Origin: Alphaproteobacteria bacterium | GTDB taxonomy: Bacteria; Pseudomonadota; Alphaproteobacteria; Thalassobaculales; Thalassobaculaceae | Assembly: GCA_024742605.1 (NCBI GenBank) | Contig: JANSYC010000036.1 | Location: 1 to 38,162 of the forward strand | DNA length: 38,162 nt | Reading direction: 5' to 3' | Shown: in pieces, positions 18,778 to 26,147 of the stretch | How the letters are laid out: each line of letters starts with the position of its first letter | Position numbering within the stretch: position 1 is the stretch's first letter | Notes under the pieces: model-generated | Databases searched by the model: none | What the model saw: the letters and a program-made list of their open reading frames with translations, nothing else | Told to the model about the DNA's origin: nothing | Program-made: the position numbers and the translations under genes

Positions 18778-19656
18778 ATGTTTCGCGCCCTCGCCGTGAC
18801 CCTAGGACTGGCCGTATCCCTGTCCCCCGCCGTCCTGCCTCAGCAGGTTTTCGCAGCCGAGGAGATCCGTTTCGCCGTGACCGACATCGAAGGTCTGGAA
18901 GCCCTGCAGCAGGAATTCGGCCCGTTCGAGGCGGCACTGGAGGCCGCCACCGGTCTTGATGTCCAGCTTTTCCCGGTCGGTAATCGGACCGCTGCGGTCG
19001 AGGCCCTGAAGGCCGATCAGGTCGATTTCGTGCTGACAGGCCCGGCCGAGTACGTGGTGATCAAGGAACTGACCGATGCCAGGATCGTGGTGGCTTGGCA
19101 GCGGCCGGATTATTTTGCGCAGGTCGTGACCCTGGCCGACGGGCCGATCCGCAGTGTTGCCGACTTGAAGGGCAATGCCGTGGCGTTCGGGTCGGTCGGC
19201 TCGACCTCCCAGCATCTCGGCCCGGCGCAGGCACTGACCGATATGGGGCTTAAGTACGGCACCGATTATGAGGCGAAGATCATCTCCCGAAACGTGGCGA
19301 TCGAGGCCCTGATCCGAGGCGATATCCAGGCGATTGGGATGAACTTCAGCCATCTGCAACGCGCCCGTGCGGCCTATCCGGATGTTGCTTTCACTGTGGT
19401 GGCACGCGGCCGCGATCTGCCGAACGATATTCTGGTGGTGCGCAGCGGGCTCGACCAATCGGTGGTCGACAAGGTCAAGACGGCGTTTGTCGAAGACGGG
19501 GCCGCACTGATGGCTGCCGTGCTCAAGGGCGAAGACAATCAGAAGTTCAAGGGCGGCTTCTTCCTGCCGAAGGTCGACGACGCCGACTACGACTACGTCC
19601 GGTCGATGTACAAGACCATTGGCGTGGACACCGTCACCGACTTCGTTGGCAATTGA
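18778..19656 (+). CDS. Phosphonate/phosphite-type ABC transporter substrate-binding protein (PhnD-like)
   Basis: A 292-residue periplasmic binding protein of the PhnD/PtxB/HtxB type. A signal peptide ends in VFA before AEE (predicted cleavage after residue 26). The mature part starts EEIRFAVTDIEGLEAL and has the family blocks LKADQVDFVLTGPAEYV, GNAVAFGSVGSTSQHLGP and DIQAIGMNFSHL. GSTS-type residues near position 140 contact the phospho-oxyanion in studied relatives. ATG 18778 follows a strong GAGGAG site. The stop overlaps the ATPase gene (TTGA). The ligand may be a phosphonate, phosphite, phosphate or another small oxyanion; the family label does not fix it. Confidence 0.9.
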   Translation: MFRALAVTLGLAVSLSPAVLPQQVFAAEEIRFAVTDIEGLEALQQEFGPFEAALEAATGLDVQLFPVGNRTAAVEALKADQVDFVLTGPAEYVVIKELTDARIVVAWQRPDYFAQVVTLADGPIRSVADLKGNAVAFGSVGSTSQHLGPAQALTDMGLKYGTDYEAKIISRNVAIEALIRGDIQAIGMNFSHLQRARAAYPDVAFTVVARGRDLPNDILVVRSGLDQSVVDKVKTAFVEDGAALMAAVLKGEDNQKFKGGFFLPKVDDADYDYVRSMYKTIGVDTVTDFVGN

Positions 19657-20465
19657 ACGAGCAAGGGCGGGTCGGTGCCCGACCCGGTGCTCCGGCCGCC
19701 TCGGACCAGGCCACGCATGCAAGCTGTCCACCGCTCGTGGTTGAGGCGTGCGGCCTGGGTAAGCGCTTCACCACTGGTCCACGGGTGCTGAACGCGATTG
19801 ATTTTTCGGCTCGGCGTGGTGAGCGGATCGCGCTTGTTGGCTCAAACGGCGCGGGGAAGTCGACCTTTCTCCGCTGTCTCGTTGGTCTCGTGCCGTTCGG
19901 CGACGGTACGGTCGAAGTTCTCGGTCAGCGGTTTTCGGAGCAACCCAACCGCCGGCAACGCGTCGCACTCCGACGTCGGCTTGGCTTCGTGTTTCAGTTC
20001 CACGGTTTGGTGGGCCGAACGAGCGCGCTTTCAAATGTTGTCAACGGCGCGCTGGGCCAGGGCAATGGGAATCATGCGCTTGCCCCGGAGCGCTTGCGCA
20101 CGGACGCCTTGGACGCGTTGGCGGCGGTCGGCCTGTCGGACCGCGCTCTCGATCGCACCGATACCTTGTCCGGTGGCCAGTCGCAGAGGGTCGCAATCGC
20201 CCGCGCACTGGTCCACCGCCCGGAGCTGGTGATAGCGGACGAACCCGCCGCCAGTCTCGACCCGGTCGCCGGAGCCGAGGTCATGAGCGTATTTCACGGA
20301 TTGGCGGAACAGCGCGGCGCGACCCTGATCTTCACCACCCATGACCTGCAGCATGCGCTCGACTATTCCGACCGGATTGTCGCTCTCGCGGCCGGTCACG
20401 TGGTTTTGGATTCCCCGACAGTGCATCTCAGGGTCTCGGACTTGGAGGCGATCTACCGTGACTGA
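19653..20465 (+). CDS. Phosphonate-type ABC transporter ATP-binding protein (PhnC-like)
   Basis: A 270-residue ABC ATPase. Walker A GSNGAGKST is at 63-71, LSGGQ at 172-176, and Walker B IADEP with Asp196 and Glu197; H-loop TTHD is further on. The Q-loop segment FVFQFHGLVGRTSALSNV is of the PhnC kind. The start is a TTG at 19653 that overlaps the PhnD-like stop by three bases. It adds about 28 residues before the ABC domain, more than usual for PhnC, so a later in-frame GTG near 19737 cannot be excluded. It overlaps the permease gene by eight bases. Confidence 0.9.
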   Translation: MNEQGRVGARPGAPAASDQATHASCPPLVVEACGLGKRFTTGPRVLNAIDFSARRGERIALVGSNGAGKSTFLRCLVGLVPFGDGTVEVLGQRFSEQPNRRQRVALRRRLGFVFQFHGLVGRTSALSNVVNGALGQGNGNHALAPERLRTDALDALAAVGLSDRALDRTDTLSGGQSQRVAIARALVHRPELVIADEPAASLDPVAGAEVMSVFHGLAEQRGATLIFTTHDLQHALDYSDRIVALAAGHVVLDSPTVHLRVSDLEAIYRD

Positions 20466-21279
20466 CCATTTGCGGATGCCGCGCCCTATATCCAGCCGGG
20501 ACATCGCACGTTGGCCCCGGCTGACGCCGCTGCGGTTCACGGTTCTCGTGGCCCTTGGTGCCGTTCTGATCGCCTCGATCGGCGAGGTGGCGCCTGGACC
20601 GGATCGATTGATCGGCGCACTTCCCCGGATGGCCAGTCTGCTGGACCGAATGGTCCCGCCCGAGACCGATCCCGCGTTTCTGGGACGCATGGGGCTGCGG
20701 CTTCTGGAGACGCTTCAGATCGCGCTGGTCGGAACCGTGTTCGGGGTCCTGGTGAGCTTCCCGTTGGCCTGGCTGGCCGCCAAGCATGTCAGTCCCTTGA
20801 ATGCGGGACGCTGGATCTCGCGCGGCGTCATCTCGCTGTTTCGGACGGTGCCGGATCTGGTCTGGGCGCTGTTCTTCGTCTCGGCCGTGGGCTTAGGGGC
20901 GATCGCCGGCACGCTCACCATCATCGTCGACACGGCAGGATTCTGCGGCCGGTTCTTCGCGGAGGCGATGGAGGAGTCCGATCCGAAGTCACGGGAGGCC
21001 TTGGAGGCGGTGGGGGCACGGCGGATCGACATCCTGTTTGCGTCTGTGGTGCCGGACTGCATGCCGTCCTTCATCAACACCAGCCTGTTCGCCCTGGAAC
21101 TCGCGGTGCGGTCCTCGGTGGTGCTCGGGATTGTGGGCGCCGGCGGCATCGGCCAGGAGCTCAAGTCGGCCTTTGAGCTGTTTCAGTATCCCAAGGCGGC
21201 GACGATTATTCTCGCGATCTTCGTGATCGTCCTGCTGATGGAGCGGTTGACCGACTGGCTGCGCCAAAAGATGGGCTAG
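20458..21279 (+). CDS. Phosphonate-type ABC transporter permease (PhnE-like)
   Basis: A 273-residue inner-membrane permease with about six helices. The cytoplasmic coupling loop EALEAVGARRIDILFASVVP is the EAA-type motif that contacts the ATPase. It is followed by SVVLGIVGAGGIGQEL, typical of PhnE. The chosen start is GTG 20458 with GGAGG nine bases before it, inside the end of the ATPase gene; an ATG at 20476 is an alternative. The frame is open back to 20341, but that part is within the ATPase gene. Together with the two preceding genes this makes a complete importer with one permease. Its TAG overlaps the stop of the convergent gene within CTAG. Confidence 0.9.
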   Translation: MTDHLRMPRPISSRDIARWPRLTPLRFTVLVALGAVLIASIGEVAPGPDRLIGALPRMASLLDRMVPPETDPAFLGRMGLRLLETLQIALVGTVFGVLVSFPLAWLAAKHVSPLNAGRWISRGVISLFRTVPDLVWALFFVSAVGLGAIAGTLTIIVDTAGFCGRFFAEAMEESDPKSREALEAVGARRIDILFASVVPDCMPSFINTSLFALELAVRSSVVLGIVGAGGIGQELKSAFELFQYPKAATIILAIFVIVLLMERLTDWLRQKMG

Positions 21280-22268
21280 CGCTTGGATCGGGTGTCAGAC
21301 CACTCCTGCCGCATCCATTCGACACAGGCGATGGCCTGCTCGAACAGGGAATAGCGGCAACCCTCGCCATAGTCCGTGTTCGGAATGAACTCGGTCGAGA
21401 TCTGGCCCAGCTTGGCGTTCGGGTCACGGGCATGGTGACGCATGAGAATCCGGATCCCCTCTTTCCAGGGCTCAAGTGCGGCTTCGTCCCAGTCGGCGTG
21501 ATACGCACCGGGCGCCGGGCGCTTAAACGGATACTGGATGCCGCGCCCGACGCTGCCGTCCGGGTGACGTGCTGGGGTGTTGCGCGGGTTGTTCGGGATC
21601 GCGGCACGGGCGTGGCAATGTTTGACCCACCCGGCCGAGACCCACTCGGCGATCACATTGCCATCCTGAAAGGGATCCAGGACCAGCTCGCCGGACGCGA
21701 TCTTCCTGTCGGTCTCGAAGATCTTCTGCTCCTCGGGATTGTCGATCTTGAAGATCACATGGCTGTGGTCGAGGGTGATGTTGAACTCCACCCCCCGTGC
21801 CTCGACCATCCTGCCGACCCGGGCGACACGTGGGAAATCCTCCGACCACATGTTCACATGCACCTCGAAGCATGGCGCGCAGCCGTATCTCTCGCCCAGT
21901 TCCGCCGCCCGCAGATAGGCGTCTGCCACTTCCTCATCCGTCACCACGTGACCGTCGGCGTGGCGCAGCTTGATCTGGGTGTTGTGGACGACCGAGCCGA
22001 GCCGCCTGGCGGTTGCCAGGTTGGTCTCCAACAGAGCTTCGTGCTCGCCGAGCGTGTAGAACCAGCCGCTGCCCCGGATCGGGAGTCCGTATTTGTCGCG
22101 GGCGGCCAGGAAATCGTCGATCTGATCCGGATCGGGAGTTTTGTCTACATAGTCGAATACCCCGGCCTCGCGGACCATGGCGAAGCGAGTGTCCACATCG
22201 GGCATCGGATCGGCATGGGTGTGCTTGATCCCGTTGGTCTGAATCCCGAACAGAAGATCATTGGCCAT
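21276..22268 (-). CDS. Sugar phosphate isomerase/epimerase-like TIM-barrel protein
   Basis: A 330-residue protein of the xylose-isomerase-like TIM-barrel (AP_endonuc_2) group. It starts MANDLLFGIQTNGIKHTHAD. Likely metal-binding positions are seen in CFEVHVNMW (Glu, His), NITLDHSHVIF (Asp, His) and WVKHCHARAA (His). The C-terminal STEFIPNTDYG supplies a further acidic residue. Relatives isomerise or epimerise sugars, hydroxypyruvate or similar hydroxy acids; I cannot name the reaction. It is the last gene of a leftward operon. ATG 22268 is preceded by GGGGAGG, and this ribosome site is buried in a strong predicted stem-loop. It is convergent with the PhnE-like gene, with overlapping stops. 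Confidence 0.82.
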   Translation of the reverse strand: MANDLLFGIQTNGIKHTHADPMPDVDTRFAMVREAGVFDYVDKTPDPDQIDDFLAARDKYGLPIRGSGWFYTLGEHEALLETNLATARRLGSVVHNTQIKLRHADGHVVTDEEVADAYLRAAELGERYGCAPCFEVHVNMWSEDFPRVARVGRMVEARGVEFNITLDHSHVIFKIDNPEEQKIFETDRKIASGELVLDPFQDGNVIAEWVSAGWVKHCHARAAIPNNPRNTPARHPDGSVGRGIQYPFKRPAPGAYHADWDEAALEPWKEGIRILMRHHARDPNAKLGQISTEFIPNTDYGEGCRYSLFEQAIACVEWMRQEWSDTRSKR

Positions 22269-22274
22269 TGTCGT

Positions 22275-22318
22275 CCTCCCCGTGCGTGCTTTTTCGAACG
22301 CTTGCACGGACGGGGAGG
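22275..22318 (-). promoter_or_regulatory. Stem-loop sequestering the Shine-Dalgarno of the TIM-barrel gene
   Basis: On the leftward transcript, CCTCCCCGTCCGTGC (22318-22304) pairs with GCACGCACGGGGAGG (22289-22275): 14 Watson-Crick pairs and one C-C mismatch, closing a 14-base loop. The 3' arm contains the GGGGAGG ribosome site, seven bases before the start at 22268. The structure therefore pairs the Shine-Dalgarno sequence completely with a CCTCCCC anti-site. It lies in the 73-base gap after the hydroxyacid dehydrogenase gene. It could lower translation of the last gene, respond to a ligand, temperature or protein, or protect the mRNA. The pairing is visible; the function is inferred. Confidence 0.7.
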
Positions 22319-22341
22319 GTTGGGAAGGTCGTGCCTTCAGG

Positions 22342-23286
22342 TCACTCGGTGTCCAGAATGGCTTTCAGGGTGGCGGGATCTTCGCGGATCTCCACCCCGG
22401 CCCGTTCCGCCTGGAGCTTCAGGAACACCCGGGAGTCGAGTGCGTCCCACCCTCGGTTGCGGGCTTCCGTCATCTCTTCCTGGACCAGATTGATCATCCG
22501 CATCGGCACGCCCACATCCCGGCCGAGCTGACAGGCGAGCGAGACGTCCTTGTGGGCAAGCCGCAGCTGGAACGACGGCGGATCGTAGCTGTCGATCAGG
22601 AACTGCTCGGCCAGGCCGTCAAAGGTGCGTTGCCGGCCGCGCGTTCCCTGTCGGATCGCCTGCCACAGGGCGGTCGGCGGAACGCCCGCCTTGACCCCGG
22701 CGGTGAAGGCTTCGGTCAGCGACATCTGAACCGCATACCCGACGCTGTTGTGCACCAGTTTGGCAACGGATCCGGCCCCGACCGGCCCGATATACCGCAC
22801 CTGATCGCCCAGCGCGTCCAGCACCGCGCGATGGGTGTCGAACGTGGCCTCATCGCCGCCGACCCAGATCGCCAGCTTGCCGGAGACGGCCCCCTTCGGC
22901 CCTCCGCTGACCGGGGCGTCCAGGAATTCAATCCCCGCCCCGGCCAAGGCGGCCTGGACCTTGCGCACGGAGACCGTGGAATTGGTCGACAGATCGAAGA
23001 CCACCGAGCCCGGCTTCAACCCGGCGATCAGACCGTTGGTGGGGTCCAAGGCGACGGACTCGACTTCCGGCGGTCCCGGCAGGGAGACCAGCACGACATC
23101 GGCCGCCTCGGCGACGGCTTTGGGGGTCTCCGCCCAGATCGCCCCCGCCGCCAGATGATCGGCTGCCGCGTCCTTGCGCAGATCGTTCACGACGAGAGCA
23201 TGCCCCACCTTCTGAAGATTTTTTGCGAAGCTGGATCCCATAAGGCCGAGCCCGATGAACCCGACCCGGCTCTTTGCTTCGGTCAT
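22342..23286 (-). CDS. NAD(P)-dependent beta-hydroxyacid dehydrogenase (HIBADH family)
   Basis: A 314-residue protein of the 3-hydroxyisobutyrate / tartronate-semialdehyde reductase family. The nucleotide-binding [16 protein letters not shown] is near the N-terminus. The substrate-binding [11 protein letters not shown] is at about 123-133, and the catalytic lysine is Lys176 in [12 protein letters not shown]. The ATG at 23286 is preceded by GGGGAGGACGAGGC and overlaps the stop of the CMD-family gene (ATGA). A longer frame to 23346 runs inside that gene and was rejected. It probably interconverts a 3-hydroxy acid and its semialdehyde, which would fit the isomerase-like gene behind it; the specific substrate is unknown. 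Confidence 0.9.
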
Positions 23287-23603
23287 GCCTCGTCCTCCCC
23301 GAACATTTCCATCGCTATCCGACCGGCGTTCACCGCCGTCGGCCATCCGGAATAGAATGCGATATGGGTGATCAGGCCGAACAGCTCCTGCTTGGTGACG
23401 CCGTTGTCGACCGCGCGTTTCATGTGACCGCGCAGCTCAGTCGTGCGGTAGAGGCCGGCCAGCAGGGCCACGGTGATCAGACTCCGGTCGCGCTTGTTGA
23501 GTTCCGGCTGCTCCCAGACATCGCCGAACAGAACCTCGTCCTTCAGCTTGCCGAATTGCGGAATCAGATCGTACACGGTCTCGGGTTTCTTCTTCTCAGT
23601 CAC
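23283..23603 (-). CDS. Carboxymuconolactone decarboxylase (CMD) family protein
   Basis: A 106-residue all-helical protein of the CMD/AhpD superfamily, gamma-carboxymuconolactone decarboxylase-like branch. Recognisable blocks are NKRDRSLITVALLAGL, ELRGHMKRAVDNGVTKQE and HIAFYSGWPTAVNA. The CxxC of AhpD peroxidase partners is absent, so thiol peroxidase chemistry is unlikely. Stand-alone members of this branch often sit in catabolic operons with unproven roles. The start is a GTG at 23603 with GGGAGG six bases ahead. It lies 24 bases after the SDR and overlaps the dehydrogenase gene by 4 bases. Confidence 0.88.
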   Translation of the reverse strand: MTEKKKPETVYDLIPQFGKLKDEVLFGDVWEQPELNKRDRSLITVALLAGLYRTTELRGHMKRAVDNGVTKQELFGLITHIAFYSGWPTAVNAGRIAMEMFGEDEA

Positions 23604-23627
23604 GGGATCCTCCCTAGGTGTCTGTTG

Positions 23628-24386
23628 TCATTGAATAAACCGATGCATTCCGCCGTCGACGGGAATAACGCAGCCGGTGATGTAGCGCGCACCCGGCGAG
23701 GCGAGGAAAGCGACCAACCGGCCGATATCCTCGGGTTCGCCGAAATATCCGGCCGGGATGTTCGCCTTGATGAAGCTCTCGCGGCTTTCTTCGGTCGGGT
23801 GCAGCCGCTCAAGGATCTGCTCGCTGTTGATCCGGCCGGGCGGGATGCAATTGATCGTGATCCCCTCGGGCGCAAGATCGCGAGACATCCCCTTGGCCCA
23901 GGCATGGGTGGCGGCACAACCGGCCAGGCCCGCATTTGTTGTGGTCGGCTCCAGGATGCCGGTGATGTGCAGGATCCGGCCCCAACCACCCGCACGCATC
24001 GTCGGGAGCAATACGGTGGTCAACCGGCGGCCCATTGTGAACTTCAACATCATCGCCTCGTCCCAGGCGCTGTCCGGTGCGTCGGGAGCGACCGAGCGGG
24101 AGGAGCCGGCGTTGTTCACGAGAACATCCAGCCGGCCGAACTGCTCTGTCATCGCATCGCGGATTGCGCTCGGCGCTTCGTCACTCGCCAGATCGGCCTG
24201 GATCACGTACGGAGCGGACCCGGTCGTGGCCTCCAGCTCTGCCGCCAGTGCGTCGAGCCGGTCACGGCGGCGCGCGGTGATTGCCAGCGTCGCCCCTTCT
24301 TGCGCCAGCACCTTGGCGACCCCGTCCCCGATCCCTGCGCTGGCCCCCGTGACCAGCGCAACCTTGCCTCTCAACCCCAGATCCAT
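23628..24386 (-). CDS. SDR-fold protein with altered catalytic residues
   Basis: A 252-residue protein of the SDR fold. The cofactor loop TGASAGIG (13-20) and NNAG (91-94) are intact, and the C-terminal GCVIPVDGG is typical. At the place of the catalytic Ser...Tyr-x-x-x-Lys, however, it reads ITG (141-143) and NAGLAGC (151-157). Anchoring on the conserved GITIN strand puts Gly153 where Tyr is expected and Cys157 where Lys is expected. The loop between is shorter by about three residues. A divergent SDR subgroup with PPGRI after the sixth strand is known to vary here. It may bind NAD(P)H but use other chemistry. It is first in the leftward operon; ATG 24386 has GAGGGGG ahead. Confidence 0.88.
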   Translation of the reverse strand: MDLGLRGKVALVTGASAGIGDGVAKVLAQEGATLAITARRRDRLDALAAELEATTGSAPYVIQADLASDEAPSAIRDAMTEQFGRLDVLVNNAGSSRSVAPDAPDSAWDEAMMLKFTMGRRLTTVLLPTMRAGGWGRILHITGILEPTTTNAGLAGCAATHAWAKGMSRDLAPEGITINCIPPGRINSEQILERLHPTEESRESFIKANIPAGYFGEPEDIGRLVAFLASPGARYITGCVIPVDGGMHRFIQ

Positions 24387-24507
24387 GGACGCCCCCTCGC
24401 ATGGCGCGGGCTTGGCAGGCCCGCCCTGTCACCCTACCTAGTCTTGTACGTTGAGACGACGCCGGCGGAACAGGCAAGCGCCGGCACGACACCATGCGGA
24501 GGATCTC

Positions 24508-25248
24508 ATGAACAAGCTAATCGCGGCGGCACTGGTCGCCCTTTTCCCGGCAACCGCTCTCGCGGGACAGGTCGTTGAATACGAGGTCGGCGGCGAGGCG
24601 TTCTCCGGCTACCGGGCTGAGGCTTCGGGTGAGTCGAAGGGGTTGGTGCTGGTGATCCACGACTGGGACGGCTTGACCGACTACGAGGTCAAACGCGCCG
24701 ATATGCTGGCGGAACTGGGCTATGACGCGTTCGCGGTCGATCTGTACGGCAAGGGCAACCGTCCGGAGGAAACCGGTGCGAAAAAAGCTGAAACCGGTAA
24801 GCTCTATAAAGATCGGGAACGGATGCGGTCGCTGATTCTGGGCGGCCTGGAAGAGGCACGGCGGACCAGCTCGGGTGAAATCGTGGTCATGGGCTATTGC
24901 TTTGGCGGCGCTGCGACCCTGGAACTCGCCCGATCGGGCCAGGCGGACGGCGTCACGGGCTACGCGACCTTTCATGGCGGGCTGTCGACCCCGCTGGGTC
25001 AAAGCTATCCGGCGTCGACTCCGCCCTTGCTGATCGCCCATGGTGGTGCGGACAGCTCGATCACCATGGACGACGTGGCGGCTCTCTCGAAAGAGTTGGA
25101 GGCGGCCGATGTGAGATATGAAATTCAGGTGTATTCCGGCGCGCCGCATGCCTTCACCGTATTCGGCTCCAGCCGGTATCAGGAGGTGGCGGACAGCCAG
25201 TCCTGGGCGGCGTTCACCGAGTTCCTGAACACCAACCTGTCCAAGTGA
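24508..25248 (+). CDS. Exported dienelactone hydrolase-like protein
   Basis: A 246-residue alpha/beta hydrolase of the dienelactone hydrolase family. It carries a signal peptide (MNKLIAAALVALFPATALA before GQ), so it is probably periplasmic; classical dienelactone hydrolases are cytosolic. The nucleophile is the Cys in GYCFGG, with Asp in AHGGADSS and His in SGAPHAF completing the Cys-Asp-His triad. ATG 24508 is preceded by GCGGAGGA. The preferred substrate is unknown; small esters or lactones are likely. The stop overlaps the PanE-like gene by 4 bases (GTGA), which ties the two together. Confidence 0.88.
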   Translation: MNKLIAAALVALFPATALAGQVVEYEVGGEAFSGYRAEASGESKGLVLVIHDWDGLTDYEVKRADMLAELGYDAFAVDLYGKGNRPEETGAKKAETGKLYKDRERMRSLILGGLEEARRTSSGEIVVMGYCFGGAATLELARSGQADGVTGYATFHGGLSTPLGQSYPASTPPLLIAHGGADSSITMDDVAALSKELEAADVRYEIQVYSGAPHAFTVFGSSRYQEVADSQSWAAFTEFLNTNLSK

Positions 25249-26147
25249 ACGACTATAAAGCGACCGTCGCGGTCATCGGTCTGGGCGGGATCGGCGGGGT
25301 GGCGGCCGCAAGTCTTTGCCACGGCGGCTGCCATGAGGTGGTCGCCTGCGGGCGACGCCCGCTGGACCGATTGAGGCTCGAACGGCCGGAGGGCGAGGTC
25401 GAGGTGCCGATCCGGACCCTGACCGATCCCCAGGACGCCTCGCCGGTGGACTGGGTTCTGCTGGTCACCAAGGCCCAGGACACGGCGTCGGCCGCGCCTT
25501 GGCTCGAGAGGCTCTGCGGGCCGGCGACACGGGTCGCGGTGATGCAGAACGGTATCGATCACGCGGCGCGGGTGAAGCCGTTCATCGGGGAAGCGATCGT
25601 CGTGCCGACCATCGTTTATTACAACGGCGAACGGATCGCGCCCGATCATGTGCGCATCCGGCATATCGGCGACAACGACATGCTGGCACCGGACACTGAG
25701 GACGGCAGAGCCTTTGCGGCCCTGTTCGAGAACGTGCCGATTTCGGTCGGCCTCAGCGCCGACTTCACGACGCTGGCGTGGCGCAAGCTGATGATCAATG
25801 TGGTGGTCAATCCGATCACCGCGCTCACACGACTCCGGCAGGGTGTGCTTCAACATACCGACATCCGCAATCTCACCAGACAGATCCTGGACGAGGCGGT
25901 GGCGGTTGCGCGGGCCGACGGTGCGGATCTCAAGGATGACGAGGCGGAGCGGATGGCGCAATTCATCGGCGGCTTTCCGGAGGATGCCGGCAGTTCGATG
26001 TATTTCGATACGCTCGCCGGCCGTCCGCTCGAAAGCCGCGCGCTGACCGGCGCCCTGGTCGAGATCGGCAGCCGCCACGGCATCCCGACACCGGTGAACA
26101 CGTCGCTTCTCGCCCTGACCAATGCGGTGAGCGACGCGAACGGGTGA
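25245..26147 (+). CDS. Ketopantoate reductase (PanE/ApbA)-family oxidoreductase
   Basis: A 300-residue NAD(P)-dependent 2-dehydropantoate 2-reductase-family protein. The N-terminal Rossmann motif is VIGLGGIGG. The central WRKLMINVVVNPITAL supplies the conserved lysine and asparagine. The C-terminal RHGIPTPVN is the family end. The substrate segment that in PanE usually reads like TEIDxLNG is here LESRALTG, so true ketopantoate reduction is less certain and another 2-oxo acid may be used. The GTG at 25245 overlaps the dienelactone hydrolase stop. The following 127-base gap contains AGGGGG (26155-26160) and CCCCCT (26179-26184), a weak inverted repeat. Confidence 0.85.
   Translation: MNDYKATVAVIGLGGIGGVAAASLCHGGCHEVVACGRRPLDRLRLERPEGEVEVPIRTLTDPQDASPVDWVLLVTKAQDTASAAPWLERLCGPATRVAVMQNGIDHAARVKPFIGEAIVVPTIVYYNGERIAPDHVRIRHIGDNDMLAPDTEDGRAFAALFENVPISVGLSADFTTLAWRKLMINVVVNPITALTRLRQGVLQHTDIRNLTRQILDEAVAVARADGADLKDDEAERMAQFIGGFPEDAGSSMYFDTLAGRPLESRALTGALVEIGSRHGIPTPVNTSLLALTNAVSDANG

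Follow-up and report, generated by a model that had tools for sequence, protein, structure and literature searches.

What does a strong RNA hairpin accomplish when it occupies the spacer between two genes of one operon and buries the ribosome site of the second? The question is raised by a 38,162-nt stretch of DNA, hereafter the window, which is contig JANSYC010000036.1 of assembly GCA_024742605.1, from an alphaproteobacterium of the family Thalassobaculaceae. Here a dehydrogenase gene is followed by a gene for a TIM-barrel protein, and the original prediction, made from the letters of the window, took the stem-loop between them to be either a translational switch or an mRNA-stability element.

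Organization of the operon

Both genes are read from the - strand. The upstream gene (DH; 22342-23286, stop codon 22344-22342) encodes a 3-hydroxyisobutyrate-type NAD-binding dehydrogenase with PF03446 and PF14833 matches above cut-off, and the downstream gene (TIM; 21276-22268) encodes a TIM-barrel product of xylose-isomerase-like fold, which matched PF01261 at E 5.6e-5, under the gathering score, and gave no match in an NCBIfam search. The TIM start was placed at the ATG 22268-22266, where close homologues have the same initial residues; a GTG at 22307 was rejected as the true start, being out of frame in G001, the sole other genome of this genus in the comparison (the window's own genome is designated G000). 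The spacer between DH and TIM (22269-22341, - strand) is 73 nt long, and we infer that the two genes are transcribed as one operon. Upstream of DH in this operon, on the same strand, lie a carboxymuconolactone-decarboxylase family gene (CMD, 23283-23603) and then a short-chain dehydrogenase gene (SDR, 23628-24386).

By eye, SDR and CMD are absent before DH in G001, a short remnant excepted, and comparison of the two sequences points to an apparent deletion in the operon. When L154:1-337 of G001 is set against 23283-24386 of the window, DH is found to be preceded by a 22-codon frame (269-337) that by eye resembles the start of CMD; this frame (L154:269-337) adjoins a gene in divergent orientation that resembles the dienelactone-hydrolase-like gene of the window. 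At the other end of the operon, a phosphonate-type ABC transporter (PhnD-, PhnC- and PhnE-like; 18778-21279, + strand) is convergent with TIM (21276-22268, - strand), the 3' ends overlapping by 4 nt, and PhnE and PhnC likewise lie downstream of TIM in G001.

Structure of the intercistronic hairpin

On the - strand, the hairpin is entered through a C-rich flank, CCTTCCCAAC (22319-22328), followed by the 5' arm CCTCCCCGTCCGTGC (22304-22318), which starts 23 nt past the DH stop, a 14-nt loop AAGCGTTCGAAAAA (22290-22303) and the 3' arm GCACGCACGGGGAGG (22275-22289), which holds the Shine-Dalgarno GGGGAGG (22281-22275). The two arms, CCTCCCCGTCCGTGC and GCACGCACGGGGAGG, pair at 14 of 15 positions with one C.C mismatch, and taken alone the 44-nt hairpin has a predicted energy of -25.8 kcal/mol at 37 C. 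Folding 111 nt around the spacer gave exactly the claimed stem (MFE -36.3, z -1.93, with 9 of 200 shuffles as good), and the hairpin is retained in the lowest-energy structure whether 111, 130 or 436 nt are folded. The original description of the pairing and its 14-base loop is therefore borne out by both sequence and folds, as is the placing of the whole Shine-Dalgarno in the 3' arm, where 22281-22275 are fully paired in the predicted fold; the gap to the ATG at 22268, given originally as seven bases, is 6 (22274-22269).

Within 21000-25500, just two inverted repeats have arms of at least 12 and no more than 60 apart, and the DH-TIM hairpin is one of them. Its core, CCTCCCCG-N10-40-CGGGGAGG, occurs at a single place in the 4.47-Mb genome, on which ground we rejected a REP or other repeated palindrome. 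Allowing up to 2 mismatches, the 3' arm has 14 matches in the genome, compared with 8 for a reversed control, and only the two arms themselves have fewer than 2 mismatches. Such a hairpin exceeds what chance would give, though by no astronomical margin when the genome has ~63% GC.

Predicted occlusion of the TIM ribosome site

To place the TIM start among others, a survey covered 1.77 Mb of the 4.47-Mb genome (~40%), with 1,611 genes called by a simple codon model, and the opening cost was computed for the 1,021 surveyed starts having a Shine-Dalgarno match (an earlier sample had n=562). The TIM Shine-Dalgarno, at 13.6 kcal/mol, ranked 1/1,021 (1/562 in the first sample) where the median was 3.1 kcal/mol; the runners-up stood at 12.6, 12.0 and 11.8, so that the tail is continuous. 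The DH site, GGGGAGGACGA, is near-identical to that of TIM and was said from the outset to lie open, and it does: its opening cost is 0.2 kcal/mol (rank 553/562). When the TIM site was held fixed and the preceding 47 nt were shuffled, a cost of at least 13.6 kcal/mol was reached in 9 of 2,000 cases. By these folding models the TIM ribosome site is strongly occluded, paired in a stable local stem in the manner of a Shine-Dalgarno-sequestering element, and the hairpin probably limits the output of the TIM gene.

Occlusion as a general trait of the TIM family was rejected, since the homologues are mostly unoccluded. Of 80 TIM-family loci examined, the N-terminus could be matched at 79, a start codon was present at 77 and a Shine-Dalgarno at 51; the median opening cost of these 51 is 3.6 kcal/mol. 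High costs were found at L002 (13.5) and at L079 (12.9; a SAR324 genome, of different sequence), and the next was 8.0.

Conservation within the genus

G001 shares both the DH-TIM order and the hairpin, at 93% identity for DH and 95% for TIM. Fourfold sites differ between the two genomes at 56/182 in DH and 44/150 in TIM (~30%). The TIM comparison (dN 0.031, dS 0.539) indicates that the gene is under purifying selection, from which it follows that TIM must be translated.

The 5' arm is identical in G001, and in both arms 14 positions are unchanged, the innermost pair being lost at the innermost G of the 3' arm. The loop carries an indel and substitutions, the hairpin span going from 44 to 43 nt, and the 33 nt that run from the C-rich flank into the middle of the loop (22328-22296) are unchanged. 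Since the arms show no variation, there is no covariation either. At the TIM locus alone the unchanged 5' arm (0/14 changes vs 9/45, p 0.07) is only suggestive. The original prediction had staked itself on the pairing being present in close relatives, and it is kept in G001, one close relative.

Beyond the genus, neither the gene order nor the DH-TIM hairpin was found in the more distant homologues compared. A DH gene next to TIM was sought at 80 TIM loci, 8 of which have less than 1 kb of upstream sequence, and was found only at L002. The core-arm pattern matched in 2 of 36 genomes, G000 and G001; a DNA search of the 36 gave matches in 7, five of these merely over the first TIM codons.

Hairpins after stop codons in this genome

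Strong hairpins are found in 43/240 convergent and 35/256 codirectional 3' regions, compared with 28/770 coding controls. They start at a median of 22-23 nt past the stop, and only 8 of 78 have at least 5 T in the next 8 bases; in a larger sample (84/583 regions), those starting at least 12 nt past the stop had quartiles of 21, 25 and 33 nt. From the scarcity of U-tracts it would seem that most 3' ends in this genome are shaped by Rho or by trimming. The DH-TIM hairpin starts 23 nt past the DH stop and has no T-run. It belongs to a set of 11 long hairpins from codirectional gaps, 10 of which start 8-54 nt past the stop, and it lies nearest to the next start, at 6 nt, the next closest being at 17 nt. 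Furthermore, two DH homologues not followed by a TIM gene (L118 in G034, L119 in G030) have a U-less hairpin after the DH stop.

A 3'-end barrier of the gal E-hairpin type calls for a stable hairpin shortly past a stop codon, with or without a U-tract, and the DH-TIM hairpin has that form and position. Because it stands in the usual place of the U-poor hairpins, it may also end or protect the DH mRNA, and the position fits the mRNA-stability element that had been offered as the alternative to a switch. An intrinsic (Rho-independent) terminator was rejected, as no U-rich tract is present and ACGACAATGG follows the stem; a terminator scan lists none at the hairpin, although the scan admits loops of 3-8 only and the loop here is 14 nt.

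The C-rich flank was considered as a general Rho-loading mark and rejected, mean C being 0.30 before 84 hairpins and 0.32 in hairpin-less regions. The flanks of the three leaders compared below have C contents of 0.40, 0.50 and 0.58, and only these are C-rich; a Rho-loading role for the flank is conjecture. In G030, the pattern CTCCCC..GGGGAG..ATG has 14 matches against 4 for the reversed control, and several of them are CTCCCCGG..CCGGGGAGT hairpins, nearly the same as one another and found in either direction, which may represent a family of terminators or repeated palindromes.

Tests for a switch or a named element

The hairpin does not behave as an RNA thermometer in prediction: the mean probability that GGAGG is unpaired is 0.010 at 37 C, 0.013 at 42 C and 0.031 at 60 C, with no melting of the stem up to 60 C. 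The best rival partner of the 5' arm lies in the DH 3' end and pairs at -21.4 kcal/mol in both genomes; as a switch this alternative pairing was rejected as unremarkable, being equalled or beaten by 200 of 1,500 random gene ends. The only mini-ORF starts in the spacer are a GTG at -27 (two codons, in both genomes) and the GTG in the 5' arm, which is in frame with TIM in G000 and not in G001, and no small ORF through the hairpin keeps its frame in G001 in the way that an mgtQ-type mini-ORF would. Rfam gave 0 matches at gathering score in the window, and all that a lax search returned was three miRNA models on the opposite strand, with E values of 2.3-3. The translational switch originally put forward thus finds no support in melting, special alternative pairing, a conserved mini-ORF or an Rfam match.

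Similar leaders at other genes

Occluded starts of the same layout were found in G000 at three unrelated genes: an enolase-superfamily gene (L261:16188-17384, - strand, gap 60) and a PRISE-type gene (L261:1659-2711, + strand, gap 73), both with the hairpin kept in G001, and also at a class II aldolase gene (L168:3532-4227, + strand, gap 75); an Hsp70-like gene (L196:14067-15344, + strand) likewise has an intercistronic hairpin over its Shine-Dalgarno. In G001 the enolase-type and PRISE-type leaders have unchanged arms and altered loops, the enolase-type span going from 33 nt in G000 to 36 nt. Pooled over three loci, the 5' arms show 0/32 changes compared with 34/145 elsewhere in the spacers (p 0.0005); the enolase-type locus had been noticed partly through a pattern match in G001, and p is 0.011 when it is left out.

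Perfect stems of at least 9 bp over the site occur at 3 of 318 starts with codirectional gaps of 40-130 nt, where shuffles gave 0.19 expected. Over all starts the figure is 3 of 1,530 against 0.72 expected, and at least 1 of 100 shuffles reached 4. A looser pattern gave 34 matches in G000 vs 12 for the reversed control, and 21 vs 6 in G001. A close homologue of the class II aldolase was sought without success in G001, which is 87% complete, and four related genomes carry the gene at 86-91% identity without this hairpin, by reading of folds; the PRISE-type gene occurs in five genomes outside the genus, by the same reading also without it. The occluding layout therefore recurs within the genus and is young.

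By eye, all the similar leaders have a C-rich stretch before or within the 5' arm, and the loops at the TIM and enolase-type genes are A-rich in both genomes. When aligned, the remaining leaders fall out of register with that of TIM. The genes upstream look unrelated, judging by eye from their N-termini (rhodanese-like, transporter-like and disulphide-reductase-like). It is a distinctly unlikely notion that these leaders form a genus-specific intercistronic RNA family, with a C-rich flank, a CTCCC-type 5' arm, an A-rich loop and a Shine-Dalgarno 3' arm, through which one common trans-acting opener would govern a post-transcriptional regulon of the TIM-barrel, enolase-superfamily, PRISE-type and perhaps class II aldolase genes. 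The existence of similar leaders elsewhere makes the regulon idea testable, and the interest of the hairpin would rise if the shared layout were to represent a regulon.

Interpretation

We favour, at a probability of about 0.5, a constitutive intercistronic RNA hairpin that restrains TIM initiation and also acts as a 3'-end barrier, giving polarity. The stem would hide the TIM Shine-Dalgarno so that few ribosomes initiate there, and TIM translation would be reduced; RNA 3' ends would arise in the TIM region, with its sparse translation, through termination by Rho or cleavage by endonucleases, and would be trimmed back to rest at the hairpin 23 nt past the DH stop. The outcome would be polarity, with more DH than TIM enzyme from one operon and no ligand needed. 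Since a ribosome at termination occupies about a dozen nt beyond the stop codon, a 5' arm 23 nt away should be out of its reach. Furthermore, termination-reinitiation was reported to be nearly abolished when the tested pairs of genes were spaced ~20 nt apart (PMC10666635). Given the footprint and this limit on reinitiation, one would not expect coupling to open the stem, and the output of DH and TIM should differ. A site inside the hairpin would join occlusion and the 3'-end role in one structure, and the two roles are not separable by sequence. Against this reading, the folding model predicts that a stem this stable would permit very little initiation unless opened, yet TIM must be translated.

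The main rival to the constitutive hairpin is a trans-acting opener of the stem. In such a regulated translational switch an sRNA, an RNA-binding protein or a ligand would open the hairpin when the TIM enzyme is needed, and the opener may be common to the similar leaders in the genus. Severe predicted occlusion of a gene that is nevertheless kept argues for it, as do the enolase-superfamily and PRISE-type layouts kept in G001, the class II aldolase layout in G000 and the enrichment of stems over the site in codirectional gaps of 40-130 nt; however, that enrichment dwindles over all starts, where at least one of 100 shuffles exceeded the observed count, the genes upstream of the similar leaders are unrelated, and the alternative fold was not beyond chance, with no conserved mini-ORF, melting up to 60 C or Rfam match at gathering score. 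Nothing found requires a regulated switch, and we regard it as doubtful. It is unlikely, too, that the structure is a 3'-end hairpin of the DH message only, overlapping the TIM site through gene proximity and having little cellular effect: its stop-anchored position and U-poor tail resemble those of other 3' hairpins here, and hairpins follow DH in L118 and L119, but the stem takes in the whole Shine-Dalgarno, gives the strongest occlusion of 1,021 starts and comes nearer to the next start than any other of the 11 long codirectional hairpins (6 nt vs 17 nt).

Chance, by which a GC-rich spacer happens to fold and the pairing is unselected, could account for the whole-region z of -1.93 with 9/200 shuffles equal, the continuous tail of opening costs and the 5'-arm p of 0.07. 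It is quite improbable in view of the occlusion being reached in just 9/2,000 shuffles, of arms that stay the same where ~30% of fourfold sites differ between the genomes, and of the pooled 5' arms without change. The conserved 33 nt, in running past the arms into the flank and half of the loop, might also suit an inverted repeat that acts as DNA and binds a transcription factor, such as the operator of an internal promoter. Dimer operators, however, rarely tolerate a changed arm-to-arm spacing, and here the span varies at both the TIM (44 to 43 nt) and the enolase-type locus (33 to 36 nt); arms that are the same around a loop altered in sequence and length speak for a stem in RNA rather than an operator in DNA. 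No further copy of the repeat occurs elsewhere in the genome, and a scan for sigma-70-like promoters found none on the - strand of 21200-24600. An operator seems very improbable indeed.

Comparison with known systems

Among the open-access matches listed, no literature was found on this operon or element. The style of control is a known one and its place, this operon, is new. Intercistronic stabilizing hairpins are familiar in the alphaproteobacteria from the Rhodobacter puf operon, where they give unequal gene output via mRNA stability; unlike the DH-TIM hairpin, they are not known to cover the ribosome site of the next gene. In E. coli, translation rates of genes in the same operon differ up to 100-fold, and start-region occlusion is described as an accepted cause of low translation, although ORF-wide structure was the better predictor (PMC5318159). 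The original remark that no named element with such a layout was known stands as far as Rfam goes, but layouts of this class are already known from Salmonella mgtC-mgtB and the E. coli galE/galT E-hairpin, and in putative mode of action these are the closest systems.

Like the E-hairpin, the DH-TIM hairpin stands at a cistron junction. In the gal operon, Rho terminates transcription when initiation at the next gene fails, and the RNA is then trimmed as far as the hairpin, which blocks 3'-5' degradation, so that a stable upstream mRNA remains and polarity results (PMC9239205, PMC11925234); the transcript steps proposed here would follow by analogy. The E-hairpin is described there as situated within galT, at least ~100 nt beyond the galE stop, and as free of the galT ribosome site, whereas the DH-TIM hairpin has the ribosome site of the next gene in the stem itself. 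In this respect it is like stem-loop 3:4 of mgtC-mgtB, which is also intercistronic and conceals the ribosome site of the gene that follows in the operon (PMC8092293). In the account given there, the Salmonella spacer has 219 nt, an 8-codon ORF, mgtQ, opens stem-loop 3:4, alternative stems exist and the energy is -12.26 kcal/mol; the DH-TIM spacer has 73 nt and a hairpin of -25.8 kcal/mol, with neither a useful conserved ORF nor a special alternative stem.
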